Source of the DNA: a virus
Virus record (IMG/VR): IMGVR_UViG_3300046163_000011
Coordinates: 1 to 57,797 of that record
Reading direction: 5' to 3' (one strand)
DNA length: 57,797 bases
Shown: positions 816 to 57,440 of the stretch, piece after piece
How the letters are laid out: each line of letters starts with the position of its first letter
Numbering within the stretch: position 1 is the stretch's first letter
Made by a program: the position numbers and the translations under genes
Notes under the pieces: generated by a model
What the model was told of the DNA's origin: nothing
Seen by the model: the letters and a program-made list of their open reading frames with translations, nothing else
The model's database searches: none

Positions 816-831
816 TTGTATCATACTACAA
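816..831. promoter_or_regulatory. Dispersed palindrome, copy 1 (TTGTATCATACTACAA)
   Basis: Inverted repeat TTGTA-N6-TACAA, about 40 bp upstream of the minus-strand gene at 588-776. It is identical on the opposite strand to the core of the copy at 52306 except for one end base. Likely an operator for a sequence-specific DNA-binding protein. Confidence 0.6.
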
Positions 832-882
832 ATCTTCAAAGAATAGAGGCTAGGAATCCTACCCCCATAGGAATATTTCCCT

Positions 883-928
883 ACTAGTTCTTCTAACTAG
901 TTATATATATATATACTACTATACTAGT
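883..928. repeat. ACTAGT box array, copy A
   Basis: Three ACTAGT boxes start at 883, 896 and 923 (spacings 13 and 27 bp) around an alternating AT tract. The array at 50091-50145 has the same two spacings in inverted orientation and shares the block ACTAGTTCTTnTAACTAGTT. A TATACA at 946-951 sits 17 bp after the third box, so that box could fall at a -35 position. Candidate replication-initiator or regulator binding region. The rest of the 840-1048 gap shows no gene. Confidence 0.55.
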
Positions 929-1048
929 TAGAGAGGCATTGATGCTATACACTAGCCCTGAGCCATTAGTCTCCCGATGGCTCCGAGAGGGGTTGAGCGA
1001 TTTCTCCACGCTCCCCCTTTCGTCATCTTTTTGGGGACAGGAGAAAAA

Positions 1049-1288
1049 ATGTCAAACAACATAATACAGTTCCCCGGCAAGGAGAAGCTGAACGATCTGG
1101 ACTTAGAGCCTAATGATATGCTAGAAGCAATCATGGAGGAAGTGGAGATGACCGAAGCTATGGTTATTGGCTGGACTAAAGATGGAAATCTTTTTCTTGG
1201 CACCTCTCATGGTAAGGCACCGGATATGTTGTTCTTGATGGAGCTTGCCAAGACTGTTCTGATTGACAGATGCATAAGCGATGATTGA
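1049..1288 (+). CDS. Conserved small phage protein upstream of terminase
   Basis: Acidic 79-residue protein starting MSNNIIQFPGKEKL. The start at 1049 is chosen over 977 because an AGGAGA ribosome site lies just before it. The core pattern, an acidic helix followed by VIGWTKDGNLFLGTS and a helix, recurs beside terminase genes in marine phages. Its stop overlaps the ATG of terL (TGATG), so the two are probably translationally coupled. Function unknown. Confidence 0.7.
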   Translation: MSNNIIQFPGKEKLNDLDLEPNDMLEAIMEEVEMTEAMVIGWTKDGNLFLGTSHGKAPDMLFLMELAKTVLIDRCISDD

Positions 1289-2799
1289 TGTCAGCAATTG
1301 ATTCTGTAAAATCCAAGATATCTAAACTGCCACCGAAGCAACAAGAAGAGCTTTTAGCACTTTTTGCGGAGCTTGAAGAAGCGGAGAACGTAGAGAACTC
1401 CAGAATAGACTTTTTAACATTCGTAAGAAAAATGTGGCCTGCCTTTATACCGGGAGACACCACTCAATAATGGCTGACGCATTTGAGCGTGTGGCAAAGG
1501 GCGAACTAAAGCGTCTGATCATTAACATGCCACCTAGACATACAAAGTCTGAGTTTGCATCATATCTATTCCAGCTTGGTTTTTGGGCAAAATCCGGAAA
1601 AGAAAATAATCCAGACGGCACACACTGCTGAACTGGCAGTCGGGTTTGGTCGTAAGGTGCGTAACCTCATCGATCAGGAAGACTTCCAAAAAGTGTTTCC
1701 GGGCATAAACCTATCTTCCGACTCTAAAGCGGCTGGTAGATGGAACACAAACAAAAGAGGTGATTACTTTGCTATTGGTGTGGGCGGTGCCGTTACTGGT
1801 AAAGGTGCTGATGTACTCATTATTGACGATCCCCATTCGGAACAAGAGGCGGCATTGGGGGCTTACTCCCCAGAAGTCTACGACAAAGTATACGAATGGT
1901 ACACATCTGGGCCGCGACAGAGACTCCAGCCGGGCGGAGCCATAATAATTGTGATGACTCGCTGGAGTGTCAGAGACTTGACGGGCCAGATAGTCAAATC
2001 ATCCACCCAAAGAGAGGGCGTAGATGAGTGGGAAGTTATAGAACTACCAGCAATTATGCCGTCTGGGGATCCTTTGTGGCCCCAATTCTGGCCCTTAGAG
2101 CAGTTGGAGTCACTAAAAGCCGAACTTCCCATATCAAAATGGTCTGCTCAGTACCAACAAGACCCAACTTCAGAGGAAGGTGCGCTAATTAAGCGCGAAT
2201 GGTGGAAAGAATGGGAGAATAGTAGCCCGCCAGCCTGCGAAGCCATCATTCAAAGTTGGGATACGGCGTTTTTGAAGACGCAAAGAGCAGATTATAGCGC
2301 TTGCACCACTTGGGGAATCTTCAATTACCCAAATGAAACTGGCGAAACAGTGCCTAATCTGATACTCTTGGATGCATACAAGGAAAAATTGGAGTTTCCA
2401 GAGCTAAAAAGGGCCGCATACGAAAAATATTGGGAATTTGAGCCAGATCAGATGATTGTTGAAGCGAAAGCCGCTGGTTCCCCCTTGATTTTCGAGCTTA
2501 GGGCTATGGGAATACCCGTAACAGAGTTTACGCCGTCTAGGGGACAGGACAAAATTGCCAGAGTTAACGCAGTCACAGACTTATTCGCATCTGGGGTCGT
2601 TTGGTGTCCACCAACCAGATGGGCTGAGGAAGTTGTTGAAGAGTGCGCGGCATTTCCCGCTGGAGAAAATGACGATCTCGTTGACTCTACAACACAAGCA
2701 CTACTCCGCTTTCGACAAGGGGGGTGGATACGAAGTGCGATGGACGACTGGGATGATGAACCACAACTCTACAGAAGAGCAAAAGCAGAATACTACTAG
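1288..2799 (+). CDS. terL: Terminase large subunit (interrupted by three single-base indels)
   Basis: ATP-driven DNA packaging motor and nuclease. The N-terminus runs in three frames. Adding one base to each of the runs GGG 1452-1454, CC 1571-1572 and AAAA 1589-1592 restores FIPGRHHSIMADAF, then SYLFPAWFLGKNPEKK, and joins the long frame ending at 2799. Visible motifs are the Walker A-like INMPPRHTKSE, Walker B-like DVLIIDDPH, and nuclease-type acidic positions in IQSWDTAF and DDLVDSTTQAL. The start ATG 1288 overlaps the stop of the previous gene; a TTG at 1285 is in the same frame. Either the sequence is in error here or the gene is broken; the rest of the head operon is intact. Confidence 0.85.
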
Positions 2800-2800
2800 C

Positions 2801-2929
2801 GTGGTAGTTAGGTATGTTATTCACTCTGAAGTAGAGCATTACAAGCAGATGGGGTGGAAGCTGGGAAATGATCTCAGCCACTGCCATCATGGGCAATATG
2901 CTGTTATCATGCAAAAGGGCAACTTTTAA
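2801..2929 (+). CDS. Small conserved phage protein between terL and portal
   Basis: 42-residue ORF with a GTG start one base after the terL stop. The sequence contains VIHSEVEHYKQMGWKLG and a His/Cys motif SHCHHGQYAVIM, a pattern I recognise from short proteins next to phage packaging genes (helix, GW, then CHHG-AV-M). Function unknown. The longer frame from 2555 is a shadow of terL. Confidence 0.65.
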   Translation: MVVRYVIHSEVEHYKQMGWKLGNDLSHCHHGQYAVIMQKGNF

Positions 2930-2940
2930 GGTATTTTATT

Positions 2941-5385
2941 ATGGCTGTAGAAAAACAAATTGAACCGTCTCCGCTAGAGGCTGATGATGACGTAGGCCAA
3001 GTTCAGGTCGAAATAGTTAACCCAGATGCCGTTTCTATTCAGGATGAAGAAGGTGGCATGATCATCGACTTTACTGGTGATATCGTAGAAGATATCGTGG
3101 GGCCAGCGCATGATGATAATCTAGCAGAGTACATCGAAGAAGACGAATTGATGTCTATGGCCTCGGAGATTATCCACGATTTTAATACAGACCGTAACTC
3201 AAGATCTGACTGGGCTAGCGCCTATGTCAAAGGACTTGATCTTATGGGAATGAAAATAGAAGAAAGAACACAACCTTGGCAGGGTGCCGCAGGCGTGTTC
3301 CATCCAGTTATGACTGAGGCTGTTGTAAGATTCCAAGCACAAGCAATGGGGGAGTTGTTTCCTGCGTCTGGGCCTGTCAGGACTAAGGTTCTTGGGGAGA
3401 AGAAGAAAGAGAAGATTGATCAGGCAAAACGCATAGAAGATGAAATGAATTATCTTCTAACGGAAGAGATGACTGAGTACAGAGATGAAACGGAGTCTAT
3501 GCTGTTCCGTCTTCCTCTTGCCGGATCTTCTTTCAAAAAAGTTTATTATGACCCGCTTCTAGAGCGCCCAGTTTCCATGTTCGTTCCTGCTGAAGATTTT
3601 GTAGTATCCTACGGATGTTCAGATCTGGCTACATCACCCCGTTACACTCACGTTATGAAAAGAACAGCCAATGAAGTTGCGGAACTTCAGGTAAATGGTT
3701 TTTACCGTGACGTTGATCTTCCCGCACCCGAACCAGATTATTCTGATATTCAAGAAAAGTATGATGAGATTGAAGGCGAAACAACCACACTAGAGGACGA
3801 TGATCGCCACACCATTCTTGAAGTTCATATTGATATTGATCTTCCAGAGCCGTTTGAAGATAGTGACGGGCTTGCTAGGCCACACATTATTTCAATAGAT
3901 AAGTCATCCTCTACAATTTTATCAATTAGGAGAAATTGGTATGAGGACGATATTAAGAAGCGTAAAAGACTCCACTTTGTTCACTACCGCTACTTACCGG
4001 GACTTGGGTTCTATGGAACGGGTCTTATTCATCTTATTGGTGGTCTTGCTAAAAGTGCCACAAGTATTCTTCGTCAACTTATTGATGCGGGTACGCTCTC
4101 TAATCTCCCCGCTGGTCTTAAAGCTCGCGGATTGCGTATTAAAGGGGACGATTCGCCTCTCATGCCGGGCGAGTTCCGTGATGTGGACGTACCGGGGGGT
4201 GCAATTAGGGATTCGATTGCATTCCTTCCTTACAAGGAGCCATCATCAGTATTATATCAATTGCTCGGAAACATTGTGGAAGAGGGGCGAAGGATTGGCT
4301 CCGTTGCTGATGTGCAAGTTGGAAACCTCAACCCGCAAGCTCCAGTCGGAACTACGCTCGCGTTGATGGAACGTAGCATGAAGGTTATGTCTGGTGTTCA
4401 GGCAAGGCTTCACGCTTCTTTGAAAAACGAACTTCGCTTATTATCAAAGGTTATAAAAGATAATATGTCTGAAGATTATCTTTATGACATGGATAGCGAG
4501 TTTAACCGTCAGGAAGATTTTGACGACAGAATTGATGTTATTCCTGTGTCAGATCCAAACGCGGCGACAATGGCTCAAAGAGTTGTTCAGTATCAAGCCG
4601 CAATGCAATTAGCACAACAGGCACCACAGCTTTACGATATGGGAAAAATACATCGTCAGATGCTAGAGGTTCTTGGAATCAAAGATGCTGATGAGATTAT
4701 TAAGTTGCCTGAAGATATAGCGCCGAAAGATCCTGTATCAGAAAATATGGCTATTCTAAAACAAGAGCCAGTAAAGGCCTTCAAGTATCAGGATCACGAA
4801 GCGCATATAGCTGTGCATATGTCAGCAATGCAAGATCCAAAGCTACAAGAGATTGTCGGTCAGTCACCTTTCGCGTCAGTTATTCAGAACGCTATGTCGG
4901 CTCACATTACTGAGCATATTGCATTCCAGTACCGCCGTGAAATTGAGAAACAACTTGGTGTAGAGTTGCCTGATGAAGATCAGCCAATCCCAGAAGATGT
5001 AGAAGAACAAATCTCTAAGATGTCAAAAGACGCCGCAGAGAAGTTGCTTGGCAAGAATCAAGCAGAGCAACAACAGCAACAGGCTCAACAACAACAACAA
5101 GATCCTGTGGTTCAGATGCAACAGCGTGAACTGGCTATAAAAGAACAGGAGCTTCAGCATAAGATTGCTATGGATATGGCAAGGCTGGATCAGCAAGAGG
5201 TTAAAGATGCCGCGAACATGGCTCTACAGAAAACCCGTCTTGAGTCAGAAGAAAAGCGTGAAGGCGCTAGACTTGGGTTGAAAGCGGCAACTGAGCTTGA
5301 TAAAGAAGAGCGTAAGGATAAAAGAGAAGGGGCCAAAATTGGTCTTGATATAGCACGGGAGATGACTGTAAATGAGGATGAGTGA
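2941..5385 (+). CDS. Portal protein
   Basis: 814 residues, in the size range of P22-like portals. The portal ring sits at one capsid vertex and is the DNA channel. Position directly after terL, an acidic N-terminus, and a central region with GVFHPVMTEAVVRFQAQAM and LLGNIVEEGRRIGSVADVQVG support the call. The C-terminus is a long Gln-rich coiled coil (about residues 690-810), like the barrel extension of P22-type portals. The final codons overlap the start of the next gene. Confidence 0.85.
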   Translation: MAVEKQIEPSPLEADDDVGQVQVEIVNPDAVSIQDEEGGMIIDFTGDIVEDIVGPAHDDNLAEYIEEDELMSMASEIIHDFNTDRNSRSDWASAYVKGLDLMGMKIEERTQPWQGAAGVFHPVMTEAVVRFQAQAMGELFPASGPVRTKVLGEKKKEKIDQAKRIEDEMNYLLTEEMTEYRDETESMLFRLPLAGSSFKKVYYDPLLERPVSMFVPAEDFVVSYGCSDLATSPRYTHVMKRTANEVAELQVNGFYRDVDLPAPEPDYSDIQEKYDEIEGETTTLEDDDRHTILEVHIDIDLPEPFEDSDGLARPHIISIDKSSSTILSIRRNWYEDDIKKRKRLHFVHYRYLPGLGFYGTGLIHLIGGLAKSATSILRQLIDAGTLSNLPAGLKARGLRIKGDDSPLMPGEFRDVDVPGGAIRDSIAFLPYKEPSSVLYQLLGNIVEEGRRIGSVADVQVGNLNPQAPVGTTLALMERSMKVMSGVQARLHASLKNELRLLSKVIKDNMSEDYLYDMDSEFNRQEDFDDRIDVIPVSDPNAATMAQRVVQYQAAMQLAQQAPQLYDMGKIHRQMLEVLGIKDADEIIKLPEDIAPKDPVSENMAILKQEPVKAFKYQDHEAHIAVHMSAMQDPKLQEIVGQSPFASVIQNAMSAHITEHIAFQYRREIEKQLGVELPDEDQPIPEDVEEQISKMSKDAAEKLLGKNQAEQQQQQAQQQQQDPVVQMQQRELAIKEQELQHKIAMDMARLDQQEVKDAANMALQKTRLESEEKREGARLGLKAATELDKEERKDKREGAKIGLDIAREMTVNEDE

Positions 5386-8974: not shown

Positions 8975-8975
8975 A

Positions 8976-8991
8976 TTGTACTATGGTACAA
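8976..8991. promoter_or_regulatory. Dispersed palindrome, copy 2 (TTGTACTATGGTACAA)
   Basis: Begins two bases after the stop of the capsid gene and just before its terminator, the same gene-palindrome-terminator order seen on the plus strand at 45797 and 52306. A TATAAT at 9032-9037 follows the terminator but lacks a good -35. Confidence 0.6.
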
Positions 8992-9000
8992 ACTTTTGCG

Positions 9001-28274: not shown

Positions 28275-28279
28275 TACAA
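28264..28279. promoter_or_regulatory. Dispersed palindrome, copy 4 (TTGTACCGTAGTACAA)
   Basis: Contains the stop codon (TAG 28272-28274) of the preceding gene and ends one base before the ATG of the first lysis-region gene. This is the boundary between tail and lysis genes. Confidence 0.6.
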
Positions 28280-29800: not shown

Positions 29801-29818
29801 TTTGTATGATGCTACAAA
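29801..29818. promoter_or_regulatory. Dispersed palindrome, copy 5 (TTTGTATGATGCTACAAA)
   Basis: Perfect 6-bp arms with a six-base centre, seven bases after the holin stop. It overlaps the weak -35 (TTGTAT) of the promoter candidate just downstream, so binding could repress it. Confidence 0.6.
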
Positions 29819-42200: not shown

Positions 42201-45200
42201 ATGGTGGACAACTTCCAAACTGGCGAGCAAATACCTGTTTATCTGTTTGCTGGTGACGATGTAAGCCCAGATGACGATGGGGTATCTGGTGATAAAAACC
42301 ACGGCCTGTTTCACATCATACAACGCAACCACGACAAAGAGCTTGTCGAGCAGTCAAAGTACCCAAGTGTACAACAGGCTATATATGACCTGTTAAAGAA
42401 ATGGGAATCACAGGGTTATAGAGACGGATCTGCTGTTGTCGCAATGCCAACAGGCAACTTTGAGTTAGCACTTGAATGGAATAATGACATTCCTCGCAAG
42501 TCAGGCCCGCTAAAGCTGGTGCTTACAAAAGCTAGAGACAAGTCTGGCAAGCCTTTTTATTACATCAAGACATTCTATCCATTTGGTGCGGAGAAGAAGA
42601 AAAGTGTGCGGTCATTCAACCCACAGCTTCTCAACACCACTGCGTATACTCCGACTGTGCAGAACATGATTGGTCAGGCAGAAAACAACATCACTTATAC
42701 TGCCTCCTTAAATTATCTGTCTAAGTTTCTTTACATTCCTGCTGGCCTGAACATGGACAGGGCAAAGGATTGGTCAGAGCGTCTCATTACGCAATTCCAA
42801 GACCGATTTGTGCATATTGGGAAAATCGTAGATGAGATGAAGGCTAATGGTGTGACCGTCACAGACATGATGGACACATACCTGCAAGAGAGCAATGCCC
42901 AAGGTATAATAGGAGATAAGCTAAGAGAGAGAGAAAACCTACACTATAATAAACTTGGCAAACAAATATCAGAGCTTGAGGTGACTGATGCTGAGTTCAA
43001 TGATTTAAAAGGCGCATCTAATAGAAATCGCAACCCACAAGGCGGCAGTCCGTTTGGCTTTGTAGAGACTGACTATACATACAACAAAAGCAAGGCTATG
43101 ACATTAGCAGAAGCGTATCTGTATGCCTTACACGCAAAAGAAAGAAATCTTCGCATACAAAAACATATTGATCCTACCAGTGAATCTGGTTCAGGTATGA
43201 GTGATGCAGAAGCAGACGCGATCCTAAATCAAATATCTCAGATGTCTCCGGAGACACAGCAGAAGCTAAGTGAAATTCGTAGTAGCCTACAAAATCTTAT
43301 ACAAGACACAAGAAATGTTCGCGCTGAATCTGGTCTAACAACATCTGACATGACAACTCAGATAATAAATGATCCAAACGATCCTGATGTTACGATAGAA
43401 GTGGAAGAGTTTGTAGATTACATACCTCTACGAGGAAAGTTTGATGTTCTTGGTGAGGCCAGCGAAGAGGGAAACTTTGGCGCTACAAGAAGCCCACTTT
43501 ATGGAGCTAGAGGCCGCGAAGATAAACAGATGCTTGGTCGTGAGTATAGCGGTTATGCTACAACAATTATTGTTGGAGCTATGCAACAGAACCAGAACTC
43601 GGTTATTCGTGGTGAGCGTAATAAGGTTGGTCAGAGCTTTTACAGATTGTTGCTCGGTCAACAAGACGCTGACGGAAATCCATTGCCAGATGACCAAAAA
43701 GCAGAAGTGCAGAGAATTATGTCTCAGTACGCCTACATAATGGACAAAGTACCAATGCGGCGTATCTTGGACAAGAATGGCAGGGTTTCAATTATTCCTG
43801 ATCCAAGAGGAAAAGAAGGAAAGCTATCTGTAAAGATTGATGGTGAAGAAGTCCTTATAGATTTTTACGACCCAAGAATCGGTCAAGCAATGATCGGAAT
43901 GAGCGGATCTCCAGAGAAATCTAATGGATTTATGAGAGCGGCATTCAAGTTCAATAGATATCTGTCCACAATTAACACCACATACAACCCATCATTCTTC
44001 TTTACCAATATCTTCCGTGATATCCAAACTGCTGGTGTGAACATCAATCAGTTTGAACGTGAAGGTCTTACTAGAGAAATGATGAGCAACGTAAAACAGT
44101 CTTGGAAAGCTGTTCGCGCTGGAGTTCGCCTTGAAGAAGAAAGCTCGATAACAAGAGAAGACGCATTGCAACCGGGGTTTGACATTAACTCTGTTTCTGA
44201 CGTTGACCTATTTAGACTGTTCCAAATTTTTGGTGGTCAAAATGCTCTGAACCAGACCAGTAGTTTGCAAGACCAAATTGAAAATATCGACAGTATTCTT
44301 GGAGATATACCGCGTGAAGGATTTAAGGCTGAAGTAAAAGACTTTGCTGGAAAGTATGCGGCTCCAGTAAAGAGACTTGGTAAATTCTTAGAAGACTACA
44401 ACACAGTCGCTGAAAATATGATGCGTGTAGCCGCATTCAAAGCACTCGCTCCAAGGGTTGGTATGGAGAAGGCCGCTTTTGCCGCCAGAAACCTTACAGT
44501 TGATTTTGCAAAAGGTGGTGAGAACAAAACACTTCTGAACTCCCTATACCTTTTCTACAACGCATCTATGCAGGGTTCATTCGCAATTCTCAATGCTCTT
44601 GCCCGTTCAAGAAAAGTGCAGAAGATTTGGGCTGGTATAGTTGTGGCTGGTATGGTGCAAGATCAGTTGAACGCCATGCTGTCAGAAGAAGATGAAGATG
44701 GCGATTTGGTGTATGACAATCTTAAGCAATGGAGACTTGAAAATAACATCATGTTACCACTTGGGAACAAGAAATACTTACAGATACCCCTGCCATATGG
44801 TCTGAACGCCGCATTTAATATGGGCAGATCACTTAGCAGATTCTCAAGAGGCCAATACTCTATAGGACAAGCTGGGTCAACAATCTTTGGAACTGCCACA
44901 GATGTGTTTAACCCATTCGGCGGCAACCTTGGTGCTGTTATAACAGGAGAAGATGGCGCAAGCATAGGCAACGTAATTGCTCCTACAATAGCAGATCCTT
45001 TTATTGACGTTATGTTTGATAATACAGATTTCAAGAACAGTCAGATTGCAAAGAAGCCAAACGCATTTGACCCAACACCTACACCTAACTCACATCTGTA
45101 CTGGTCAACAACAGACCCTAATTTTGTGAAAGTAGCACAAGCCATTAACTCACTTACTTTTGGTAGCAGTGTAGAAAAAGGCTTCATAGATCCATCACCT

Positions 45201-45692
45201 GATGTTCTTGAGCATATATATCAGTTTATGACTGGCGGCGCTGGGTCATTCGCCGCAAGGGTTGGCAACTTCGGCATAAATGTAGCCCCTGCCGCACTAC
45301 AGGGTGACTTTGAAGAAGATATGATACAAGCCACACCAATAGCCAGACGCTTCGTTGGCTATGTAGGAGAGCGTGGTGACACAGAAGAGTTCTTCAACGG
45401 AAGAGATAAAGTTTTGCTTGCTGGTGAGGTTCTGAAGAACGCATACGCAGTAGGAAACATGGAAGAAGTTGAGAGCGTGAAGAAGAGGTTTACAAAAGAG
45501 TTGCGTATCTACGGAGCGATTAAGAATGTAAACAACGCTCGTAACCGCATCCTACGCAAGATGGCAAAGATCAAAGACAACCCAAGGATACCTAAAGCCA
45601 CTAAGGATGCCGCTATCAAAAAGTTGAGCGAACAGGTAAACGCGATAGTGATGCGTGGTAATCAATACCTCAACCAATACGACATACAGTGA
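36276..45692 (+). CDS. Giant polyvalent/ejected virion protein (3138 residues)
   Basis: Expected to be packaged in the head and ejected with DNA. Residues ~139-195 are Gly/Ala-rich and hydrophobic (AGGKAGAFTGGAIGSFAG), able to form a membrane channel. A coiled-coil zone follows to ~680. H741-E-I-I-H745 in LNHEIIHAMRDVG is a zincin-type metallopeptidase motif. Later modules include ASISTGLANKFPMAGVAGN and GYTITTGGGFADIDGKYAVA. The C-terminal third contains an LPD38-like region (NSLYLFYNASMQGSFAILNA, then NIMLPLGNKKYLQIPLPYGL). It is intact over 9.4 kb and is the largest gene of the window. Domain names rest on motif recognition only. Confidence 0.7.
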   Translation: MALIPVQDPQTGKLYNVQIAGDTPTQQEITEIKEWLASQSQPVETTTPIAETTPAEEPGFLESTAGAGIDQIQALFGSAAEGVGNVTGFDGLRDWGREVNEANEAEYAEKTQNRQQLEDVGGVGDFAKFAGESVVEQLPQLGMSLAAGYAGGKAGAFTGGAIGSFAGPAGIAIGAGIGATVGGVGGMVAANLPFIYGSHREAQKDQIEAGVQTEVDEGVAFLTAIPATALETIAEKVMVGKFLTPKLINSGGIFTRVTKNAATGALVEAPTELGQQVIERAQAGKDLLSDDAFKEYGHAALVGGLVGSSVKGTGGAFTKDQRKVDLEEEALKRSQLEQDEKVEDAQLVGGFAAAQKEADARTEDEVVKAQVIQQGRSVADDERAREKAEAQINSENKPVNFADLDPEVVKTINIQRQRAQAAGMPVGTPRRTTIEEMRALGLDEAADVELKKQKDTFVDKHDRNTTERKFSQEQYDKAKAKILESGKADDKTIIESIRETLPEGQDKVPVTLIEEIRQELALNRVIETNNGKDYNVAPEGIRDEDAAEPLRQRVSRSRARLDAIQAKVKELETLYDQQATINQTPDQKSAARAELSTQLQGLNVEAKREEADIRNTQRQIDTIDAQTGANEQIGNIRHDQAQARLAFSAAKEAAKAPKKADYETRMQKLVTGLQSYLKGIGLGDVNLTVQSLLEPDKIAGGQLVEGYYESSNKLIALATDLYDPTLSDAEYEARLRAVLNHEIIHAMRDVGVFTDAEWNTLTNAAAKRKYNVIINGKPLERLYTFMERETRRQQFTPPERMDGETQEDYDIRSEAAAARHQDLVEEEAVAEMFRAWTDGRLKLGGKPQSLFKRMISFLSGVGKAHYDEDITASDQIFEGIVRGDMASREFKVEPKSVPETAPEEAKMYSYGRVFPDNLSTFEDEIITIDQALDTHNFPQNVQDKLLGYTKTEDDADIREGTVVTVRLNLNGRTFLGPDAEAYKNEYNSQVAQINRSDAPAWKKDGMKSGLPFGLNKKYEGTTSTAIQTAHQGRNPKGKALAYAPAVTVRDVTFLVDQGARASISTGLANKFPMAGVAGNIAHGVNSTRGVEVKFNPFKHHVFVASFPQADGTRVEVPIKSAEEATVYGNTVYVRGKLEFYEDGELPVAKTSATGTLTRALEGDDPANVGNKVTKQTNVPSYNFDLPENAQGVEVISDFLNQEEIGRKYSIRQLTPELAKLSILHRLDEDGNFKTTYNMRQKADGTYGIDYISKGEALHLLQSERGNAKFEYVPRKGFSKEAEEEIAIVMAAEAEAALNRDGNAIGWYDRTLKLAKKMLTPVFPEIATDPAAEAVFDFALAVTSNGIAVVQNFKYAAEQYRAFKETGRFPVVGYGDREKAMKKAFLFYNAMLESGKTEAQIAEFLDQDTTPKLMDQNSVLQDLGITAPAGEGKNSPVKMSFVIGPKIGQGFYQNLRGNYDVLTMDIWWMRMYNRITGNPFKDITNATLDKGRNDVVKLTKAALKRSTDPSEVQSTEDYTSEDLAYEAQLVQDTLKAEDIDIINKDNVDQATLIIESAFQKAFRDAPTDARPTKTDLFKRTGTHAENLGGDVEQAAPRGSTDRTQQRRIAKRALDILEENTGTRISMADFQALMWYPEKLLFRSVGVRPGQGSDSDYVDGVIELLRAEGITDGQIEEALPTTDRHRVNPDVDPRRQDGGVREGVADDRSTSDSKKYSGRILARNLRDFIKQNPDGYTITTGGGFADIDGKYAVAPLKSAEIISGNTLPTSVLLEYIEQTRQISEIYGTELYLGGWLNSENSKFYLDSTMLVDELDTALYIADAGQQEGIFDFNTFEEVRTQNGINQLRESGTYRSELAERYLRDTEEADKQFTSARAERGGRFITAEQVAAERREELLTISSVADEDYAFTEFISPEMEQMVRQIDNVISAQGSEQPSRLYARRPVRQFAPVANAVAQRRMDNGEDVNMKFPNVHGYMVDNFQTGEQIPVYLFAGDDVSPDDDGVSGDKNHGLFHIIQRNHDKELVEQSKYPSVQQAIYDLLKKWESQGYRDGSAVVAMPTGNFELALEWNNDIPRKSGPLKLVLTKARDKSGKPFYYIKTFYPFGAEKKKSVRSFNPQLLNTTAYTPTVQNMIGQAENNITYTASLNYLSKFLYIPAGLNMDRAKDWSERLITQFQDRFVHIGKIVDEMKANGVTVTDMMDTYLQESNAQGIIGDKLRERENLHYNKLGKQISELEVTDAEFNDLKGASNRNRNPQGGSPFGFVETDYTYNKSKAMTLAEAYLYALHAKERNLRIQKHIDPTSESGSGMSDAEADAILNQISQMSPETQQKLSEIRSSLQNLIQDTRNVRAESGLTTSDMTTQIINDPNDPDVTIEVEEFVDYIPLRGKFDVLGEASEEGNFGATRSPLYGARGREDKQMLGREYSGYATTIIVGAMQQNQNSVIRGERNKVGQSFYRLLLGQQDADGNPLPDDQKAEVQRIMSQYAYIMDKVPMRRILDKNGRVSIIPDPRGKEGKLSVKIDGEEVLIDFYDPRIGQAMIGMSGSPEKSNGFMRAAFKFNRYLSTINTTYNPSFFFTNIFRDIQTAGVNINQFEREGLTREMMSNVKQSWKAVRAGVRLEEESSITREDALQPGFDINSVSDVDLFRLFQIFGGQNALNQTSSLQDQIENIDSILGDIPREGFKAEVKDFAGKYAAPVKRLGKFLEDYNTVAENMMRVAAFKALAPRVGMEKAAFAARNLTVDFAKGGENKTLLNSLYLFYNASMQGSFAILNALARSRKVQKIWAGIVVAGMVQDQLNAMLSEEDEDGDLVYDNLKQWRLENNIMLPLGNKKYLQIPLPYGLNAAFNMGRSLSRFSRGQYSIGQAGSTIFGTATDVFNPFGGNLGAVITGEDGASIGNVIAPTIADPFIDVMFDNTDFKNSQIAKKPNAFDPTPTPNSHLYWSTTDPNFVKVAQAINSLTFGSSVEKGFIDPSPDVLEHIYQFMTGGAGSFAARVGNFGINVAPAALQGDFEEDMIQATPIARRFVGYVGERGDTEEFFNGRDKVLLAGEVLKNAYAVGNMEEVESVKKRFTKELRIYGAIKNVNNARNRILRKMAKIKDNPRIPKATKDAAIKKLSEQVNAIVMRGNQYLNQYDIQ

Positions 45693-45865
45693 TGAAGAAG
45701 AGAAACCCTATCGCCAAGTTAATACGAGATCCGAGATTTAACAGTAGATCTGTTAAGTCGAAGAAGGTGTACACTAGGAAGGGTAGGCAAAAAGAATTTG
45801 TAGCAGGGTACAAAAAGGGGCTAGGTCAATATGATCCAGCCCCTTTTTATTTAGCCACTATTTAG
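45692..45865 (+). CDS. Short basic protein; last gene of the late block
   Basis: 57 residues, MKKRNPIAKLIRDPRFNSRS then VYTRKGRQKEFVAGYKKGLG. The first 35 residues match a very common short phage peptide (MKKRNPIAK---RDP-F). The start overlaps the giant gene's stop (TGATG). Its 3' half contains a TTTGTA/TACAAA palindrome and a terminator, and its end overlaps the convergent minus-strand gene by 8 bp. An earlier stop would be expected; the extension may be recent. Confidence 0.6.
   Translation: MKKRNPIAKLIRDPRFNSRSVKSKKVYTRKGRQKEFVAGYKKGLGQYDPAPFYLATI
45797..45814. promoter_or_regulatory. Dispersed palindrome, copy 6 (TTTGTAGCAGGGTACAAA)
   Basis: Perfect 6-bp arms directly before the terminator between the convergent late (+) and early-type (-) operons. 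Lies within the last 60 bp of the 57-residue gene. Confidence 0.6.
45812..45848. terminator. Bidirectional rho-independent terminator
   Basis: AAAAA, stem GGGGCT (45817-45822), loop, stem AGCCCC (45838-45843), TTTTT. Works on both strands, between convergent operons. Confidence 0.85.
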
Positions 45866-46221: not shown

Positions 46222-46422
46222 CTATTGTGAAGTTTCTTGTGTTTGATTGTGCTTATCTTCAATCCATTTCACAATTACTTCACGCTTCCATCGCCTAATT
46301 CTTGGCGATAATACGATTGGTGGTGGAAAACTCTCATCTGTGTTGATGATGTGGTACACAGACTTTGGCCTAATGGATAGCATTTCCGCTATCTCTTTAT
46401 GGTCAACTAGGTTGGTGGTCAT
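46222..46422 (-). CDS. AlpA/excisionase-like HTH protein
   Basis: 66 residues. DHKEIAEMLSIRPKSVYHII is a winged-HTH/MerR-type recognition unit, followed by FPPPIVLSPRIRRWKREVIV, the usual AlpA/Xis-like wing (FP-P---RRW----V--W). Could act as excisionase or transcription regulator; no integrase is visible. It is the clearest small DNA-binding regulator here and a candidate for reading the dispersed palindrome. Confidence 0.7.
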   Translation of the reverse strand: MTTNLVDHKEIAEMLSIRPKSVYHIINTDESFPPPIVLSPRIRRWKREVIVKWIEDKHNQTQETSQ

Positions 46423-47910: not shown

Positions 47911-48557
47911 GCCGCTTTTCCTTCTAAAGTTTCTTTGTGAGCGATGAAGTCTTTGAACACATCATCGTATAGGGCTTTGTCTTTTGTCTCCAAAAGATCG
48001 ATGGCCTTCTTGTTCTTTGCCCAAAACCCCCTTAATTCAGTTATGTCATTACACTCCGGTATGAAAGTCTTAAACACTTCCCCGACAAGGCTGTAGTCCT
48101 CAACGGTTTTTTTCTCACCGTTTTTGTTCTCAAGCTGTATCGTTTCTGGCTGTGGCTCAACACCCTCTGGCAAGTCTTCGCCAGCGTATATATAATGACC
48201 CAATCCGTGCATAGCACAGCACTTAGCCAAGCACCTCTGAATAGCAGTGTTAACGCTAAACGAGTCTGGATGCTTCATGGCTTTGTTTTTGAAATCCAGA
48301 ACAGGCAGTAACTCTGTCTGCTCATCGTCACCAATTTTTACAGTGACAGACACAAAAGCAAATCCTTGATCGTCCTTCATGTATGGATAAGTTCCATTTG
48401 TAGTATTGTACAAATGTTTTTGAAAGACCGCATTTGGGTAATGCTTCTTCACAATCCCCCAAGCCCATGCCCATGACAGGTACGTTAAGTTCCCCTTCTT
48501 CTCGGTGTGTTCAGACACATCGATACCAGAAAGCGTTTCCCATATTGTTTCGCTCAT
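47907..48557 (-). CDS. Single-strand annealing protein, DUF1071-like
   Basis: 216 residues. HTEKKGNLTYLSWAWAWGIV, then NTAIQRCLAKCCAMHGLGHY and IYAGEDLPEG, are the hallmarks of DUF1071-type (Rad52-superfamily) phage annealing proteins. It pairs with the PD-(D/E)XK exonuclease just upstream as a two-gene recombination system. Overlaps both neighbours (ATGA). A TTTGTA/TACAAA palindrome lies inside the coding region. Confidence 0.85.
   Translation of the reverse strand: MSETIWETLSGIDVSEHTEKKGNLTYLSWAWAWGIVKKHYPNAVFQKHLYNTTNGTYPYMKDDQGFAFVSVTVKIGDDEQTELLPVLDFKNKAMKHPDSFSVNTAIQRCLAKCCAMHGLGHYIYAGEDLPEGVEPQPETIQLENKNGEKKTVEDYSLVGEVFKTFIPECNDITELRGFWAKNKKAIDLLETKDKALYDDVFKDFIAHKETLEGKAA
48397..48414. 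promoter_or_regulatory. Dispersed palindrome, copy 7, intragenic (TTTGTAGTATTGTACAAA)
   Basis: Perfect 6-bp arms but inside the annealing-protein gene, about 145 bp after its start; the only clear copy well inside a gene. It may act as an elongation roadblock or be a chance match. Confidence 0.4.
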
Positions 48558-49907: not shown

Positions 49908-50091
49908 CTATAGGCACAAACAGTCAGTAGCCGAGTGGATAGACACAGAAGACTTTGAAACTGTATGTGACTTTGCTGGTGTTGCCACACCACAAATGAG
50001 AGATAATATTCGTACCATACTACAATCAAAGCCAGCTATTGCCCGATACAAAGGCAGAAAGCTAAAAGATTTAATCGACAAAAAACACTGA
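49819..50091 (+). CDS. Conserved phage protein, start uncertain
   Basis: Core LWRAVISQAVSDAYLDDYRH, then EWIDTEDFETVCDFAGVATP, matches a common phage helical protein (WRAVI-QA--DA, DF--VC--AG) found near replication genes. The TTG at 49819 is the nearest plausible start and overlaps RusA by about 90 bp. In homologues as I recall them the protein begins just before WRA, so an indel near 49851-49863 is possible. Confidence 0.55.
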   Translation: MIEKTQEHLSECYLWRAVISQAVSDAYLDDYRHKQSVAEWIDTEDFETVCDFAGVATPQMRDNIRTILQSKPAIARYKGRKLKDLIDKKH

Positions 50092-50145
50092 CTAGTAATA
50101 CTAGTTATAATATATATAAATATATAACTAGTTATAAGAACTAGT
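50091..50145. repeat. ACTAGT box array, copy B
   Basis: Four ACTAGT boxes start at 50091, 50100, 50127 and 50140 (spacings 9, 27, 13). Spacings 27 and 13 repeat those of copy A (883-928) in opposite orientation, with an AT-rich centre. It sits just upstream of the primase-helicase promoter, as expected for a replication origin or regulator site. Confidence 0.6.
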
Positions 50146-50180
50146 TGGCGGCACTTTTCCACATCATCCAAAAAACCTGA

Positions 50181-52305: not shown

Positions 52306-52323
52306 TTTGTAGTATGATATAAA
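52306..52323. promoter_or_regulatory. Dispersed palindrome, copy 8 (TTTGTAGTATGATATAAA)
   Basis: One mismatch in the right arm. It starts one base after the stop of the DUF6378-like gene and precedes two hairpins, the same gene-palindrome-terminator order as at 8976 and 45797. Confidence 0.55.
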
Positions 52324-53473: not shown

Positions 53474-53573
53474 CGCGTTTCATCTCCTTCCATACATCCA
53501 TTACAAAACAACACCAGCCGACCATGCCGACTGATGAACCAATAATTAAAACAATCCAAACTAAATCATTCAT
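53445..53573 (-). CDS. Very short single-TM protein
   Basis: 42 residues, MNDLVWIVLIIGSSVGMVGW then a Cys pair and a basic tail KEMKRDVTSKTNSH. AGGGGAAG precedes the start (53576 is one codon earlier). One membrane helix. It fills the gap between neighbouring genes and overlaps both, so it fits the compact operon. Confidence 0.5.
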   Translation of the reverse strand: MNDLVWIVLIIGSSVGMVGWCCFVMDVWKEMKRDVTSKTNSH

Positions 53574-53781
53574 CATCTTCCCCTTCTATTTCATATTCTA
53601 ACCAGCCATTAGAAGCGTCAACTCCCAACAAAAACATTTCTTTATCTGCTTCTGTATTGAAAGCGTATGTTTCAGACTTATCTCTATCTGTACCCCATAT
53701 AATGGTAACAGCGTGATTTGCATTGTCGATATCCTCTTGGACTTGACCGATGCAATTAACCAGTGGTTTTTGTACTACCAT
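53566..53781 (-). CDS. Hypothetical protein
   Basis: 71 residues. MVVQKPLVNCIGQVQEDIDN, then DRDKSETYAFNTEADKEMFL and an acidic end YEIEGEDDE. AAGGAG lies 8 bp before the ATG, and the ATG itself is inside a TTTGTA/TACAAA palindrome, so a protein bound there, or an RNA hairpin, could affect expression. Family unknown. Confidence 0.55.
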   Translation of the reverse strand: MVVQKPLVNCIGQVQEDIDNANHAVTIIWGTDRDKSETYAFNTEADKEMFLLGVDASNGWLEYEIEGEDDE

Positions 53782-53786
53782 ACAAA
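53769..53786. promoter_or_regulatory. Dispersed palindrome, copy 9, over a start codon (TTTGTACTACCATACAAA)
   Basis: Perfect 6-bp arms. The start codon of the minus-strand gene at 53781 lies in its centre and the AAGGAG ribosome site directly upstream. Perfect pairing in RNA would place the AUG in a loop. Confidence 0.6.
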
Positions 53787-54155: not shown

Positions 54156-54932
54156 TTAGGTGTTGAACATCTTGGTCATATTACGAACCGCACGTTGACG
54201 TAACAGCTTGTAGGCCTTGGTCACGGTGTCGCTGTATGAGTGTGGGATAGCGTCCTTGCCATCAGCGGTTGCGACTGCTGGGTTGTGTTGTGACGTATCG
54301 CCGTATGTGCATAGGTAGCCTATCTCTGACGTACCCAGTCCATTCTTGAATGCTACAGCAGTCACCCTGTAGACGGTCATCCCTTCCTCTTGACAATATT
54401 TTACGTCAATAGGCTTTGCGGATAGAACAAACCTCTTGCCCTTGGATGAATTGATAATGGCAAGGCCACGCTGAAACACTGCACGATACCAAGAAATGCT
54501 GACTATTATATCAGTTGATTTGTTCCAACTGCTTTTGGGGTTGTTCTGTTCTGTGCCTACTTCTTTAGAAGAAGTGGCAATGTGAACATCAGTATTTGAG
54601 CGAGGGAAAAACTCCCCAAGTGTACTTCTTGCTTGGTCTTTTGTTAAGACCTTGTGCTTGCCCATAGGGTTGTAAGTTTCACGCAATGAACGGCTGTTCC
54701 TGTATGAACTTATCGCGCCCATGAGGTCATCTACATAATCATAAAACGCACCATACACCTTAAAGCCTTGAGATGTTTCTGTATCGAAATAATCTTTCAG
54801 TCCATCTAAGTTATGGCGGCTGGCTATCCTGATATCCTTAGCCATTTTATGAGGAACGCCCCAAGCATCGCAGGTATCAAGCATCTGCTTTTTTGCCAGT
54901 TCCATCATTTTGTAATTTTTTACTGCGTCCAT
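54156..54932 (-). CDS. Hypothetical protein downstream of the metallopeptidase/VWA gene
   Basis: 258 residues with a GGGAG site. Helical N-terminus (VKNYKMMELAKKQMLDTCDA), middle with HNLDGLKDYFDTETSQGFKV, then beta-rich C-terminus (GKRFVLSAKPIDVKYCQEEG, MTVYRVTAVAFKNGLGTSEI). No family recognised. It has the same leader (terminator, palindrome, GGGAG) as the VWA protein and the 57409 gene, so it probably belongs to the same regulated group. Confidence 0.6.
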   Translation of the reverse strand: MDAVKNYKMMELAKKQMLDTCDAWGVPHKMAKDIRIASRHNLDGLKDYFDTETSQGFKVYGAFYDYVDDLMGAISSYRNSRSLRETYNPMGKHKVLTKDQARSTLGEFFPRSNTDVHIATSSKEVGTEQNNPKSSWNKSTDIIVSISWYRAVFQRGLAIINSSKGKRFVLSAKPIDVKYCQEEGMTVYRVTAVAFKNGLGTSEIGYLCTYGDTSQHNPAVATADGKDAIPHSYSDTVTKAYKLLRQRAVRNMTKMFNT

Positions 54933-54946
54933 TTTATTACTCCCAA

Positions 54947-54964
54947 TTTGTAGTGTGATACAAA
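54947..54964. promoter_or_regulatory. Dispersed palindrome, copy 10 (TTTGTAGTGTGATACAAA)
   Basis: Identical to copy 12 (57423-57440). It lies 15 bp upstream of the start at 54932, between a terminator and a GGGAG ribosome site. Confidence 0.7.
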
Positions 54965-54965
54965 A

Positions 54966-54989
54966 TTAGAAAGCCGCACTAGGCGGCTT
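54966..54989 (-). terminator. Terminator overlapping the end of the VWA gene
   Basis: On the minus strand AAGCCGC-CTAGT-GCGGCTT is followed by TCTAATTTT. The stem includes the last codons and the stop of the upstream gene. Confidence 0.7.
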
Positions 54990-56118
54990 CCTCTATTACT
55001 GCGATATCCCCGAAGGGCGGTGTCTTAGCGAAGCGGCTATCAGGTGCAGTAGATAGCCATAGCACTGGGTAGTCAGGCACCGTGTCTGGGTAATCCCAAA
55101 TGCCCATATCAGATACGACAAACATCTTGTCGCATCCTATTTGGTTGTCTCTGACATAGCGGAACAAAGGCTCTACATTAGTACCGCCCCTGTCATCACA
55201 GTCTAGCTGGGGCATTGTCTCACCCTTGGCTAGTGTAGTGTGACGAGTGCAACCGCCTGACCATGTTATGATGGTGACACTCTCAGGCTGGTAGTCCTCA
55301 ATAGCCTGATTGATAACGCCTAGTGCCATCTCCAATTCCTGACCAGACATAGAGCCTGATGTATCAGGTGCAATCACCCAGTCACCAACGCCTAGCTTTT
55401 TGACAGATGGATACCAGATGCGCTGTTGCGTCCAATACTTTTTCTGAGGGCGTGAGAAGGTGTAATCATCTGGCTGATCACCGCCAGCGAACCGCCGCAC
55501 AACGTCACCCCAATCGACAGTGACGCGCCGCATCTTGGCAATAATCTCCTCAATAGCGGCTGGCAGTTTGCCAACAGATTTTGCCGCATTCGCCGCCATC
55601 ATGGCACGTTGCTTGATGCTTGCCTGTTCCTGCTTGACCTGACCTTGTGATAGGTCAGAGCCGTCAGCGTTCTTTTGCTGTTTGACCTCACCCCAGCCGC
55701 CGCCCTCGCCGCCTTCTGGTGGTTGCGGTGGTAACAGGTCGTAAATCTTTTCTGCGGTCATCCCAGTATATTGTGGGTCAATCAAACCACCTTGCGGCAG
55801 TACCATGCCGCTATCGGTCAGCCAGCCGTTGATTGCATAATCGCAAGCAATGTTCCACTGCTCATGGTCACGTTTGCCCATGCGGATATGATGCCCCATA
55901 AATATGTGAGCAATCTCATGAGCGACAACACCCATGATTTCCTCGACAGTGTGAGCATCAACAAAGGCAGATGAATAGCCAATGTCCTTGCCATCAGTGT
56001 ACATTGTGTCGTGGTCATCATCCTGTTTCATACCGCAAGACATAGCCATAGACCCGAAGAAGGGATGCTGTAACATCAGCTTTGTGCGGCAGATAGCGAT
56101 TTTTTTCTGTGCGTCCAT
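54979..56118 (-). CDS. DUF2201-type metallopeptidase/VWA protein
   Basis: 379 residues from ATG 56118 (GGGAGT ribosome site; the frame to 56157 reads through the leader). N-terminal zincin H67-E-I-A-H71 in VVAHEIAHIFMGHHIRM, then HEQWNIACDYAINGWL. Gly/Gln-rich linker (~131-165). C-terminal VWA domain with the MIDAS set: D252-T-S-G-S256, T313 in DRGGTNVEP, and D337 in FVVSDMG. Proteins of this type work with MoxR AAA+ ATPases, encoded just upstream, in protein remodelling. Role in a phage is unknown. Confidence 0.85.
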   Translation of the reverse strand: MDAQKKIAICRTKLMLQHPFFGSMAMSCGMKQDDDHDTMYTDGKDIGYSSAFVDAHTVEEIMGVVAHEIAHIFMGHHIRMGKRDHEQWNIACDYAINGWLTDSGMVLPQGGLIDPQYTGMTAEKIYDLLPPQPPEGGEGGGWGEVKQQKNADGSDLSQGQVKQEQASIKQRAMMAANAAKSVGKLPAAIEEIIAKMRRVTVDWGDVVRRFAGGDQPDDYTFSRPQKKYWTQQRIWYPSVKKLGVGDWVIAPDTSGSMSGQELEMALGVINQAIEDYQPESVTIITWSGGCTRHTTLAKGETMPQLDCDDRGGTNVEPLFRYVRDNQIGCDKMFVVSDMGIWDYPDTVPDYPVLWLSTAPDSRFAKTPPFGDIAVIEEAA

Positions 56119-56133
56119 TGTGTAACTCCCAAA

Positions 56134-56151
56134 TTTGTAGGGGGGTACAAA
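56134..56151. promoter_or_regulatory. Dispersed palindrome, copy 11 (TTTGTAGGGGGGTACAAA)
   Basis: Centre is GGGGGG. That centre can instead pair with CCCCCC (56140-56162 hairpin GGGGGGT-N9-ACCCCCC), so two structures compete, a possible attenuator. It lies 16 bp upstream of the start at 56118. Confidence 0.65.
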
Positions 56152-56168
56152 ATGCACCCCCCAGATTG

Positions 56169-57197
56169 TTAGCGTTTCGGCATCAACTCGCGGCAGTTGT
56201 CCAACATAAACTGGCGAAACTTTGCATTAGTCACCAGCTTATTGTCGCGTGTGAATGCGTCCTTGATTGTGAATACCGCGAACTCCTGATGTGGTAATCG
56301 TGCAAGGTAAGCCATGCAAGGCTCAACATTGGATGGGTTGATGCGGTCAGCGATAGCCGCGCAGACTGCATACAGGACAGACGGCTCGTCAGGGATAGGC
56401 GCACCCGATGGGTTGCCGATGATTTCCTTGTCGATGTCGGGGCAAGTGTCGAACACTTTTTTGTAGCCGTAATATTCGGCGGCGTTGCCCTCACCAACCT
56501 GACCAGCGACAGCTTCCATCTCAACGACTGTATCCAGACCCCACTTGCAGATTTCATCAACCTTGAACCATGAGCGCGGCGAACCAAACGCCATAGCGTC
56601 CTTGTCGAACTGGTTGAATAACTCAGGGCGGAAACGTGCCAAGCCCTTGAGGACTGGGCTGATGCCCTTCTTGTTTGCGTGAGCCACAAATTCGTCTAGG
56701 TCAAAATCGACATTTACAAATGTCAGGCGGTCACGCAGATGCGAAGGTATCTGGTTAGTGCCTGCCCTGTCTGACATACGGTTGCCAGCACATACGATAG
56801 ACCAGCCATCAGGCAGTGAATGCTCACCAATGCGGCGTTCATTAACCAACTGAGCCATGATGTTCTGGTTGGCAACAGGGGCTTGAGGCCACTCATCGAT
56901 GAAGATAACGCCCTCGCCTTGGCTAGGCATCCACTCAGGGCGAAGCCTGACCATCTGACCAGCCTGTTCGACAAGCCAGCCAGCAATCTCGCCAGCGTCA
57001 TATTGAGCCAGCGACAGGATAACAAGACCAAAGTTTTCATTGTCCTGTCTTTTGCTTTCAACAAACTGATGAACGATAGAGGTCTTGCCCTGCCCAGGGC
57101 TTGACATATAGGACAGAACGACACTTTCCAGCGCATTGCCGCTAGTTTGTGACTGATAAGAAGCCTCGATGAGGGCGAATGCTTGTGATAATTTCAT
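56169..57197 (-). CDS. MoxR-type AAA+ ATPase
   Basis: 342 residues from ATG 57197 (CAGGAG site). Walker A SSPGQGKTS (K38), Walker B GVIFIDEWPQ (D101-E102), sensor 1 VCAGNRMSD (N139), and an SRH-like SHLRDRLTFV segment. The C-terminal half is helical (ARFRPELFNQFDKDAMAFGS). MoxR ATPases act with VWA-domain partners; the DUF2201/VWA gene follows 50 bp later, so the two very likely form one complex. Cytoplasmic; substrate unknown. Confidence 0.85.
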   Translation of the reverse strand: MKLSQAFALIEASYQSQTSGNALESVVLSYMSSPGQGKTSIVHQFVESKRQDNENFGLVILSLAQYDAGEIAGWLVEQAGQMVRLRPEWMPSQGEGVIFIDEWPQAPVANQNIMAQLVNERRIGEHSLPDGWSIVCAGNRMSDRAGTNQIPSHLRDRLTFVNVDFDLDEFVAHANKKGISPVLKGLARFRPELFNQFDKDAMAFGSPRSWFKVDEICKWGLDTVVEMEAVAGQVGEGNAAEYYGYKKVFDTCPDIDKEIIGNPSGAPIPDEPSVLYAVCAAIADRINPSNVEPCMAYLARLPHQEFAVFTIKDAFTRDNKLVTNAKFRQFMLDNCRELMPKR

Positions 57198-57202
57198 GAT
57201 AA

Positions 57203-57409
57203 CTACTCCTGATTTTGTGTGTGTTTTTTGCAGTGAAATTTGTGCGATATCTTGGCGGCATCCTCTATGCACTTTACCCAGTCTTTATCGCGTGAATGCT
57301 TGCCATGCACTCGCTTGAAACTTTCCCAAGAGAGCGGCTCCCATAAGCCAGCGACATCATCGCAATGCTCATGCCAAAGTTGCATTCTGGTAGGCTCAAC
57401 TATCATCAT
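57203..57409 (-). CDS. Hypothetical protein
   Basis: 68 residues from ATG 57409 (57406 is an alternative) with GGGAGTTGAA before it. MIVEPTRMQLWHEHCDDVAG, then WESFKRVHGKHSRDKDWVKC and a His/Lys-rich end KFHCKKHTQNQE. Several His and three Cys could bind metal. It precedes the MoxR gene by 5 bp and carries the palindrome leader, so it is likely the first gene of the ATPase/VWA unit. Confidence 0.55.
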   Translation of the reverse strand: MMIVEPTRMQLWHEHCDDVAGLWEPLSWESFKRVHGKHSRDKDWVKCIEDAAKISHKFHCKKHTQNQE

Positions 57410-57422
57410 TTCAACTCCCAAA

Positions 57423-57440
57423 TTTGTAGTGTGATACAAA
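57423..57440. promoter_or_regulatory. Dispersed palindrome, copy 12 (TTTGTAGTGTGATACAAA)
   Basis: Identical to copy 10. Lies between a G/C-rich terminator and the GGGAG site of the 57409 gene. Confidence 0.7.

Follow-up and report, generated by a model that had tools for sequence, protein, structure and literature searches.

Dispersed 18-bp palindromes in integrase-less marine phages as candidate stoperator-like sites for a phage-encoded protein

Networks of stoperators have been documented in temperate actinobacteriophages (PMC6550527, in excerpt). In the excerpted accounts of cluster A phages such as L5 and Bxb1, many dispersed sites lie in short intergenic spaces. These sites are asymmetric, 13 bp long and predominantly in one orientation, they are recognized by a monomeric repressor, and the phages are temperate, with an integrase or parABS (PMC6550527, PMC9283540). 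Here we analyze a 57,797-base viral contig, IMGVR_UViG_3300046163_000011 (the window), which carries a family of dispersed palindromes of the form TTTGTA-N6-TACAAA. With a probability of roughly 0.6, these palindromes are the sites of one phage-encoded protein of about 220 amino acids, encoded at 57472-57797 on the minus strand, and serve a stoperator-like, genome-wide repression.

As far as the excerpts describe cluster A, the system is similar in site number, in intergenic placement and, apparently, in motif-protein co-divergence. It differs in its 18-bp palindromes, which lack orientation because of their symmetry, in its several very different spellings and in its candidate protein, for which no described relatives were found. 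Integrase, resolvase and ParA were not found in the 19 genomes searched. Since the match covers number, placement and, apparently, co-divergence and not symmetry, orientation, protein or lifestyle, we set the system outside the cluster A family: it works like stoperators and is not a member of that family. A first-pass annotation of the window had drawn the stoperator comparison, which needs amending for the palindromic sites and for the undetected integrase, resolvase and ParA.

Other phages carry comparable repeats. Excerpts on the lytic T1-like phages Stevie, T1 and TLS describe mainly intergenic repeats, 16 in Stevie and 20 in T1, which the authors liken to stoperators and whose role the Stevie authors call unknown (PMC4319613, PMC11447400). 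In these excerpts the repeats are asymmetric or oriented with transcription and no binding protein is named, whereas the present sites are palindromes. The cyanophages A-1 and N-1 have a motif found 21 times in N-1, typically between open reading frames (ORFs), for which stoperators were considered; in the part of the report available it is asymmetric and no covarying protein is named, unlike the palindrome and covarying protein described here (PMC4916379). The CtrA sites of alphaproteobacterial phages are likewise operators, in phages that may defer lysis, but CtrA is a host regulator and its sites, as excerpted, are concentrated in terminal repeats or gap regions (PMC9437464). No report of this palindrome system was found in the literature searched, and the excerpted paper on HTVC023P-type phages (PMC9599517) does not mention palindromes, promoters or integrases in the part available.

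The sites, their positions, their class switching and their covariation with proteins were all computed here. The window contains seven exact copies of TTTGTA-N6-TACAAA, and the count rises to 12 when one mismatch is allowed. At the remaining spacers between 0 and 20, no copy is exact and zero to three are found with up to one mismatch. When the window was simulated 200 times with a second-order Markov model, the mean number of exact copies was 0.00 (maximum 0) and that of copies with up to one mismatch was 0.33 (maximum 3). At three mismatches, 52 matches stand against 38.9 expected, a number reached in 3 of 100 shuffles and thus little above chance. Such weak matches were not counted as sites because their frequency is near chance. 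A symmetric position weight matrix (PWM) was fitted to each genome, and its score cut-off was set to allow about 0.3 false sites in a simulated genome. It gave 19 sites in the window. The same fitting on simulated copies (six genomes, three copies each) returned 0 to 4 sites, as compared with 14 to 21 in the real genomes. Therefore, the shuffled-genome check proposed in the first-pass annotation does not support a chance origin, and the proposed PWM scan of window and relatives recovers one geometry across genomes.

All twelve copies listed in that annotation are present, although those at 815, 8975, 16607 and 28263 begin one base to the left of where it had placed them. It had put all copies except those at 48397 and 45797 in short intergenic gaps. 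The former does lie within a gene, the Sak-like one. The latter is intergenic, 104 bp past the stop of a giant ORF, and the copy at 53769 overlaps a start codon. The twelve are as follows, none being assigned a strand.

815-832: site ATTGTATCATACTACAAA, intergenic between a TerS-like gene and the genes preceding TerL; the same family junction has a site in 8 genomes
8975-8992: site ATTGTACTATGGTACAAA, immediately past the stop of the major head protein
16607-16624: degenerate site AAGGTACTATACTACAAA, three mismatches, intergenic and abutting ATG 16625; the weakest of the twelve
28263-28280: site ATTGTACCGTAGTACAAA, its final base being the A of ATG 28280
29801-29818: exact site TTTGTATGATGCTACAAA, 45 bp upstream of ORF 29864
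45797-45814: exact site TTTGTAGCAGGGTACAAA, at a convergent junction and followed by a terminator-like hairpin at about 45815-45849 (by eye)
48397-48414: exact site TTTGTAGTATTGTACAAA, within the Sak-like annealing gene
52306-52323: site TTTGTAGTATGATATAAA, abutting a stop codon, with a convergent gene pair next
53769-53786: exact site TTTGTACTACCATACAAA, overlapping the start codon of the small minus-strand ORF 53566-53781
54947-54964: exact site, flanked by a terminator-like hairpin and the ribosome-binding site (RBS) of the minus-strand ORF 54156-54932 (by eye)
56134-56151: exact site, upstream of the RBS of the metallopeptidase/VWA-like gene 54979-56118 (minus strand)
57423-57440: exact site TTTGTAGTGTGATACAAA, 31 bp past the stop of the candidate regulator

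PWM sites within genes, likewise without strand, are these.

3598-3615: within the portal gene
27573-27590: within ORF 26155-28044; the weakest PWM site (score 16.6), which may be chance
34114-34131: AAAGTAGTATGGTACAAA, within ORF 33864-36266
38435-38452: within the giant LPD38 ORF (36276-45692)
39804-39821: within the giant ORF
43276-43293: one-mismatch site TTCGTAGTAGCCTACAAA, within the giant ORF
50009-50026: TTCGTACCATACTACAAT, within a small conserved ORF

The TerL, primase and HNH proteins of the window retrieved 240 viral loci, some of which share contigs, and 43 relatives were fetched as full or partial contigs. The nearest isolates by TerL include 023Pt_psg01, DSL-LC04 and the Pelagibacter phages HTVC027P and HTVC023P (51.7-56.6% identity), and the first 25 kb of the window had no similar phage record at the DNA level. 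A search for prophages among GTDB genomes gave six loci with TerL relatives, which lie on contigs of metagenome-assembled genomes, 6.6 to 62.5 kb long. One of them (L351, NYWV01000005.1) is on a contig of 62.5 kb that was assigned to the bin of a Porticoccaceae genome, which hints at a gammaproteobacterial host.

The exact core pattern is present in 8 of the 20 relatives examined first and in 8 of the 30 that followed. When all 5-base dyads were counted at a range of spacer lengths, relatives without the spelling of the window were found to carry other palindromes in the same register. The other 18-bp palindromes of metagenomic relatives are AAAGTTA-N4-TAACTTT, AAAGTTC-N4-GAACTTT and AAAGTGCA-N2-TGCACTTT. 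Read from the outside to the center, the half-sites are TTTGTACnn in class A (TTTGTAG in the window), AAAGTTA in class B1, AAAGTTC in class B2 and AAAGTGCA in class C. A G at ±6 and a T at ±5 are the consensus common to all classes, and all classes are palindromic with one 18-bp geometry. Among the 46 sequences examined, 40 genomes or contigs with at least five sites hold 575 PWM sites, with 8 to 27 sites per metagenomic contig longer than 25 kb. Excluded before these counts were G017 and G020, which gave no motif model, and HTVC027P, 023Pt, G014 and G015, with fewer than five sites. The isolates HTVC027P (41 of 58 kb) and 023Pt_psg01 (39 of 60 kb) show no comparable dispersed family, only four and one poorly defined matches. 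Conservation of the sites alongside conserved flanking genes, an expectation of the first-pass annotation, holds for the geometry and not for the letters: in several relatives the flanking genes are conserved and this spelling is absent, and a palindrome of that geometry is found instead, in many cases at the corresponding junction.

The evidence for the candidate binding protein comes mainly from covariation. The distance between site PWMs was correlated with protein distance for 35 families, each with at least 18 genomes. Near-identical genomes (G013, G008, G007, G046, G048 and G041) were excluded from the covariation, partial-correlation, nearest-neighbor, tree, start-codon, promoter-pair and sites-per-gene analyses, and included in the totals of PWM sites, sites inside and outside genes, junctions, shared codons and TerS-upstream sites. 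Protein length was limited to 1500 residues for family covariation and to 1200 residues for sliding windows. The family of the right-end gene ranks first of the 35, with r 0.615 and a partial r of 0.553 on mean genome distance. The next families are TerS (0.548), RusA (0.535, 20 genomes) and the neighbors at 54979 (0.48) and 56169 (0.44). The leading family and TerS stand in the window as follows.

57472-57797, minus strand: candidate regulator, of which only the C-terminal 107 residues are present (contig end)
3-233, plus strand: small terminase-like gene (TerS), C-terminal part only (contig end)

A relative's full TerS matches the PHROG terminase small subunit (1.9e-16), and the window fragment alone gave no match. 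The candidate regulator family, uncharacterized and about 220 residues long, is complete in relatives. At L006:70-792, for which we chose the start codon, a 240-residue protein is identical to the 107-residue part in the window over the shared stretch. The truncated window protein was excluded from the sliding-window, partial-correlation and tree analyses.

The signal is concentrated within the protein. The best 20-residue window of all 35 families (r 0.73) is the regulator stretch aligned with GLKEATIKRYMENSVGAIR of a class B2 protein, and the runners-up are RusA (0.64, 19 genomes) and TerS (0.60). This best-covarying stretch is the predicted second helix of a helix-turn-helix (HTH). Two AlphaFold2 models, with largely the same alignment behind both, have a mean predicted local distance difference test (pLDDT) score of 80.5 and 86.1 and a predicted template modeling (pTM) score of 0.55 and 0.66. 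Both models place a helix and a four-residue turn before the covarying helix, and both have a long C-terminal helix that could dimerize. By eye, the covarying helix reads xMAxKxxKN in most class A members, ATxKRYxEN in most of class B2 and S(N/S)VKRY in class C. The variant site of the window, TTTGTAG, is paired with a variant helix of its own, read from L006. Genomes G026 and G028 have class B2 sites and class B2 regulators, though for several of their remaining proteins the closest counterpart is in a class A genome. When the nearest relative more than 15% apart in the regulator was taken, it was of the same class in 28 of 30 cases.

Five members of the family gave no Pfam, PHROG or NCBIfam match at E 0.001, and tblastn with three queries found no match in 50,697 phage records. 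The best PDB fold matches of the models (Z 5.5-5.7) are not informative. The only usable fold match is an uncharacterized protein of an uncultured phage, A0A6J5P665 in BFVD (49% identity, E 6.9e-14). In the TetR family the HTH is N-terminal. The TetR-type matches, which mostly start at chain residue 37 or later and so lie largely beyond that HTH (the MexL match is an exception), were discarded. Because the libraries searched hold no named relatives, we infer the DNA-binding label of the regulator.

The sites prefer gene junctions. Outside gene bodies lie 331 of the 575 sites as compared with 82.6 expected, a fourfold excess. The 326 junction sites are divided into 221 tandem, 62 convergent and 43 divergent, and the corresponding background counts, for junctions whose gap is 8 bp or more, are 1001, 84 and 89; convergent and divergent junctions are therefore over-used. 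Gene starts come from our own simple caller and may be off. Among 184 tandem intergenic sites, 103 lie close to a start codon, from 40 bp upstream of it to 20 bp within the gene. An RBS-like motif starts 2-5 nt past the site in 47 of these 103, and 30 of them have none (G010 was additionally excluded from the start-codon and mismatch analyses). A site lies 13-139 bp before the TerS start in 28 of 32 relatives.

Many junctions hold a site despite differing spelling. The junction between the metallopeptidase/VWA-like and ATPase-like genes has one in 20 genomes of classes A, B1 and B2, near-identical genomes counted. A site also marks the 3' junction of the major head protein family in classes A, B and C, and the convergent junction between the giant gene and an AlpA-like gene in 14 relatives of classes A and B. 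Some positions within genes are also shared. Within ORF 33864-36266, eight genomes from classes A, B1 and B2 share the codon at which a site falls. The Sak-like gene likewise has a shared site codon in nine genomes, all of class A, whose peptides there differ. The 6-mer matches at the conserved primase codons FVQSHFS were set aside, as they may reflect protein conservation rather than sites. The proposal of the first-pass annotation that a single regulator reads the sites in a stoperator-like manner is borne out to the extent that one geometry holds genome-wide, that junctions are preferred and that relatives keep the same junctions.

We infer the following mechanism. The protein of about 220 residues probably contacts the site as a dimer in which each monomer takes one half-site, with residues 81-98 of model m2914477fcd6c as the contact helix. 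A dimer at junctions near an RBS, at operon ends and at intervals in long genes would block transcribing RNA polymerase. When bound before an RBS or at an operon end, it would hinder polymerase reading through from upstream genes, and at the TerS-upstream site initiation may be blocked. Overall, the phage genome would be held down in its entirety, as it is by stoperators in cluster A mycobacteriophages, with the region of the regulator nearly site-free. In the cluster A systems the bound repressor stops elongation, and a true operator at a lytic promoter is present in addition. The regulator gene with 500 bp upstream (29 genes) holds 3 sites as compared with 11.2 expected from overall density, which would let the regulator be made while the rest is repressed. 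The purpose may be timing, exclusion of superinfecting relatives or an episomal pause.

Several results weigh against this proposal. Class changes on trees number five for the regulator, four to eight for eleven other proteins and five for the AlpA-like protein. The trees do not single out the regulator, so that common descent explains much of the correlation. Since similar numbers of class changes are needed, the case for the regulator depends on the position of the peak signal within the protein. The linked TerS has a correlation of 0.55 as well, and its nearest neighbors agree in 24 of 27 cases. Eighteen loci outside the set from which the classes were derived, five of them with a helix that the set already contained, gave a correct prediction of A or not-A in 15 cases. 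The three misses (L058, L073 and L078) share one helix without a close neighbor in the set. Prediction among the four classes was right for 10 of the 18, tied for 2 and wrong for 6. By sequence or fold, the regulator resembles no known DNA-binding family in the libraries searched. A promoter-like pair ends at the TerS-upstream site in only 6 of 23 cases; the figures are 15 of 183 for the other tandem sites and 77 of 1980 for random positions (G040 was excluded from this test). The regulator gene itself has 0 sites with 3.3 expected, but TerL has 0 with 6.1 expected and the gene at 56169 has 0 with 5.2 expected. As other site-free genes exist, the site-poor regulator region is only suggestive. 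In addition, 42% of the sites lie within genes, and their even spacing is not required by a roadblock at junctions.

In view of the even spacing, the sites may have a role in genome organization. They could organize, protect or segregate the genome in a centromere-like or nucleoid-protein manner with secondary effects on transcription, which we consider fairly unlikely as the principal explanation. Spacing is more even than in a null matched for location inside and outside genes (coefficient of variation sum 11.49 versus 17.21, standard deviation 0.91, p 0.001), an effect seen in 16 of 17 genomes (G041 and G042 excluded from this test). Some long genes also have an excess of sites, namely the giant gene (70 versus 40 expected), Sak (22 versus 3.2) and primase (20 versus 8.7). 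However, the portal gene has fewer than expected (5 versus 9.6) and TerL has none, the ParA ATPase was not detected among the 19 genomes, and the fourfold excess outside gene bodies and the placement near the RBS also weigh against an organizing role.

Another protein could bind the sites. The first-pass annotation had suggested a small HTH protein.

46222-46422, minus strand: AlpA-like HTH protein, 66 residues, with weaker covariation than the right-end protein

We initially preferred this protein because it differs between classes. It is of a recognized winged-HTH type, just under the Pfam AlpA cut-off, and it is more variable than its neighbors. A homologue is present in all eight of the first relatives in which the replication region is covered, and in nine class A genomes (three near-identical) a site starts at most 3 bp from its stop codon. 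Nearest relatives in this protein agree in class in 27 of 32 cases and its tree needs as few class changes as that of the regulator, so these two measures hardly separate the candidates. The other measures do. Its covariation is low (r 0.316, partial 0.19), and its best window (0.40-0.43) lies toward the N-terminus, with recognition-helix windows at r 0.25-0.30. The partial r of the regulator given the AlpA-like protein is 0.51, and that of the AlpA-like protein given the regulator is -0.19. Genome G028 has class B2 sites, yet its AlpA-like protein is closest to that of a class A genome. On covariation, windows and partial correlation the AlpA-like protein was demoted, and it is improbable that it binds the sites while the right-end protein merely travels with the class. 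The position of the AlpA-like gene is conserved and its sequence is strongly diverged between relatives; for this reason, it may have a changing target of its own, apart from the palindromes. TerS is also a less likely binder. Its best windows (0.55-0.60) lie in the C-terminal half, the N-terminal half reaches 0.13-0.43, and its partial r given the regulator is 0.25.

A host regulator, also named in the first-pass annotation, could read the sites as CtrA does in other alphaproteobacterial phages, and phages, including virulent ones, are documented to employ host regulators (PMC9437464, in excerpt). This is very unlikely, because the site class switches in relatives along with a phage protein. 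At least three spellings with one geometry occur at the same junctions within one phage group, and CtrA sites, as excerpted, cluster in terminal repeats or gap regions, whereas the present sites are spread evenly (PMC9437464). It is hardly credible that the palindromes are RNA hairpins (terminators or translation control) or promoters: each can fold as RNA, and a terminator-like hairpin lies within 20 bp of 32 of 147 intergenic sites (15 genomes) as compared with 519 of 6000 random intergenic positions, but base identities are fixed beyond pairing alone, no -35/-10 pair stands at a fixed distance from the tandem sites analyzed, and G-U mismatches (65) are no more frequent than A-C mismatches (66), so that the palindrome is read as DNA.

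Tyrosine integrase (PF00589), resolvase (PF00239) and ParA (PF13614) were found in none of 19 genomes, on contigs of unknown completeness and with other recombinases not sought; ordinary lysogeny is therefore not indicated. Domains of the cI-like HTH_3 type were found in three of the 19 genomes, above the cut-off in two and below it in G003, and none lies in the window. Those above the cut-off are as follows.

G031, 41564-41731: HTH_3 (cI/Cro-like) domain
G031, 35459-35593: HTH_3 (cI/Cro-like) domain
G033, 2117-2269: HTH_3 (cI/Cro-like) domain

Tentatively, and at somewhat less than even odds, we suggest that widespread integrase-less marine phages use a new DNA-binding family for evenly spaced, genome-wide repression and organization. 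Specificity switches among TTTGTAC, AAAGTTA, AAAGTTC and AAAGTGCA half-sites would rewrite at least 12 sites in step with one helix and so create immunity-like groups among lytic-looking phages. If this is true, marine phages that look lytic, and in which no lysogeny genes are detectable, are able to hold their genome in a silent or ordered state, and the finding could help explain dispersed repeats with unknown roles in other lytic phages. A protein of unknown function that covaries with more than 12 sites per genome would offer a directly testable protein-DNA recognition code and possibly a new DNA-binding family.

Other features of the window were noted in passing. The giant ORF 36276-45692 encodes 3138 amino acids with an LPD38 domain and a virion-structural PHROG match, and it adjoins a DNA-ejection-like gene. 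From 54156 to 57272, consecutive minus-strand genes are spaced by a terminator-like hairpin, a site and an RBS. This block includes a metallopeptidase/VWA protein (DUF2201) and an ATPase (PHROG), a pair that resembles CobT and CobS. At 880-936 and 50088-50150 are AT-rich blocks with repeated ACTAGT and TATATA runs, possibly an origin or the sites of another regulator. An ACTAG-N6-CTAGT dyad is over-represented in G003 and G007.

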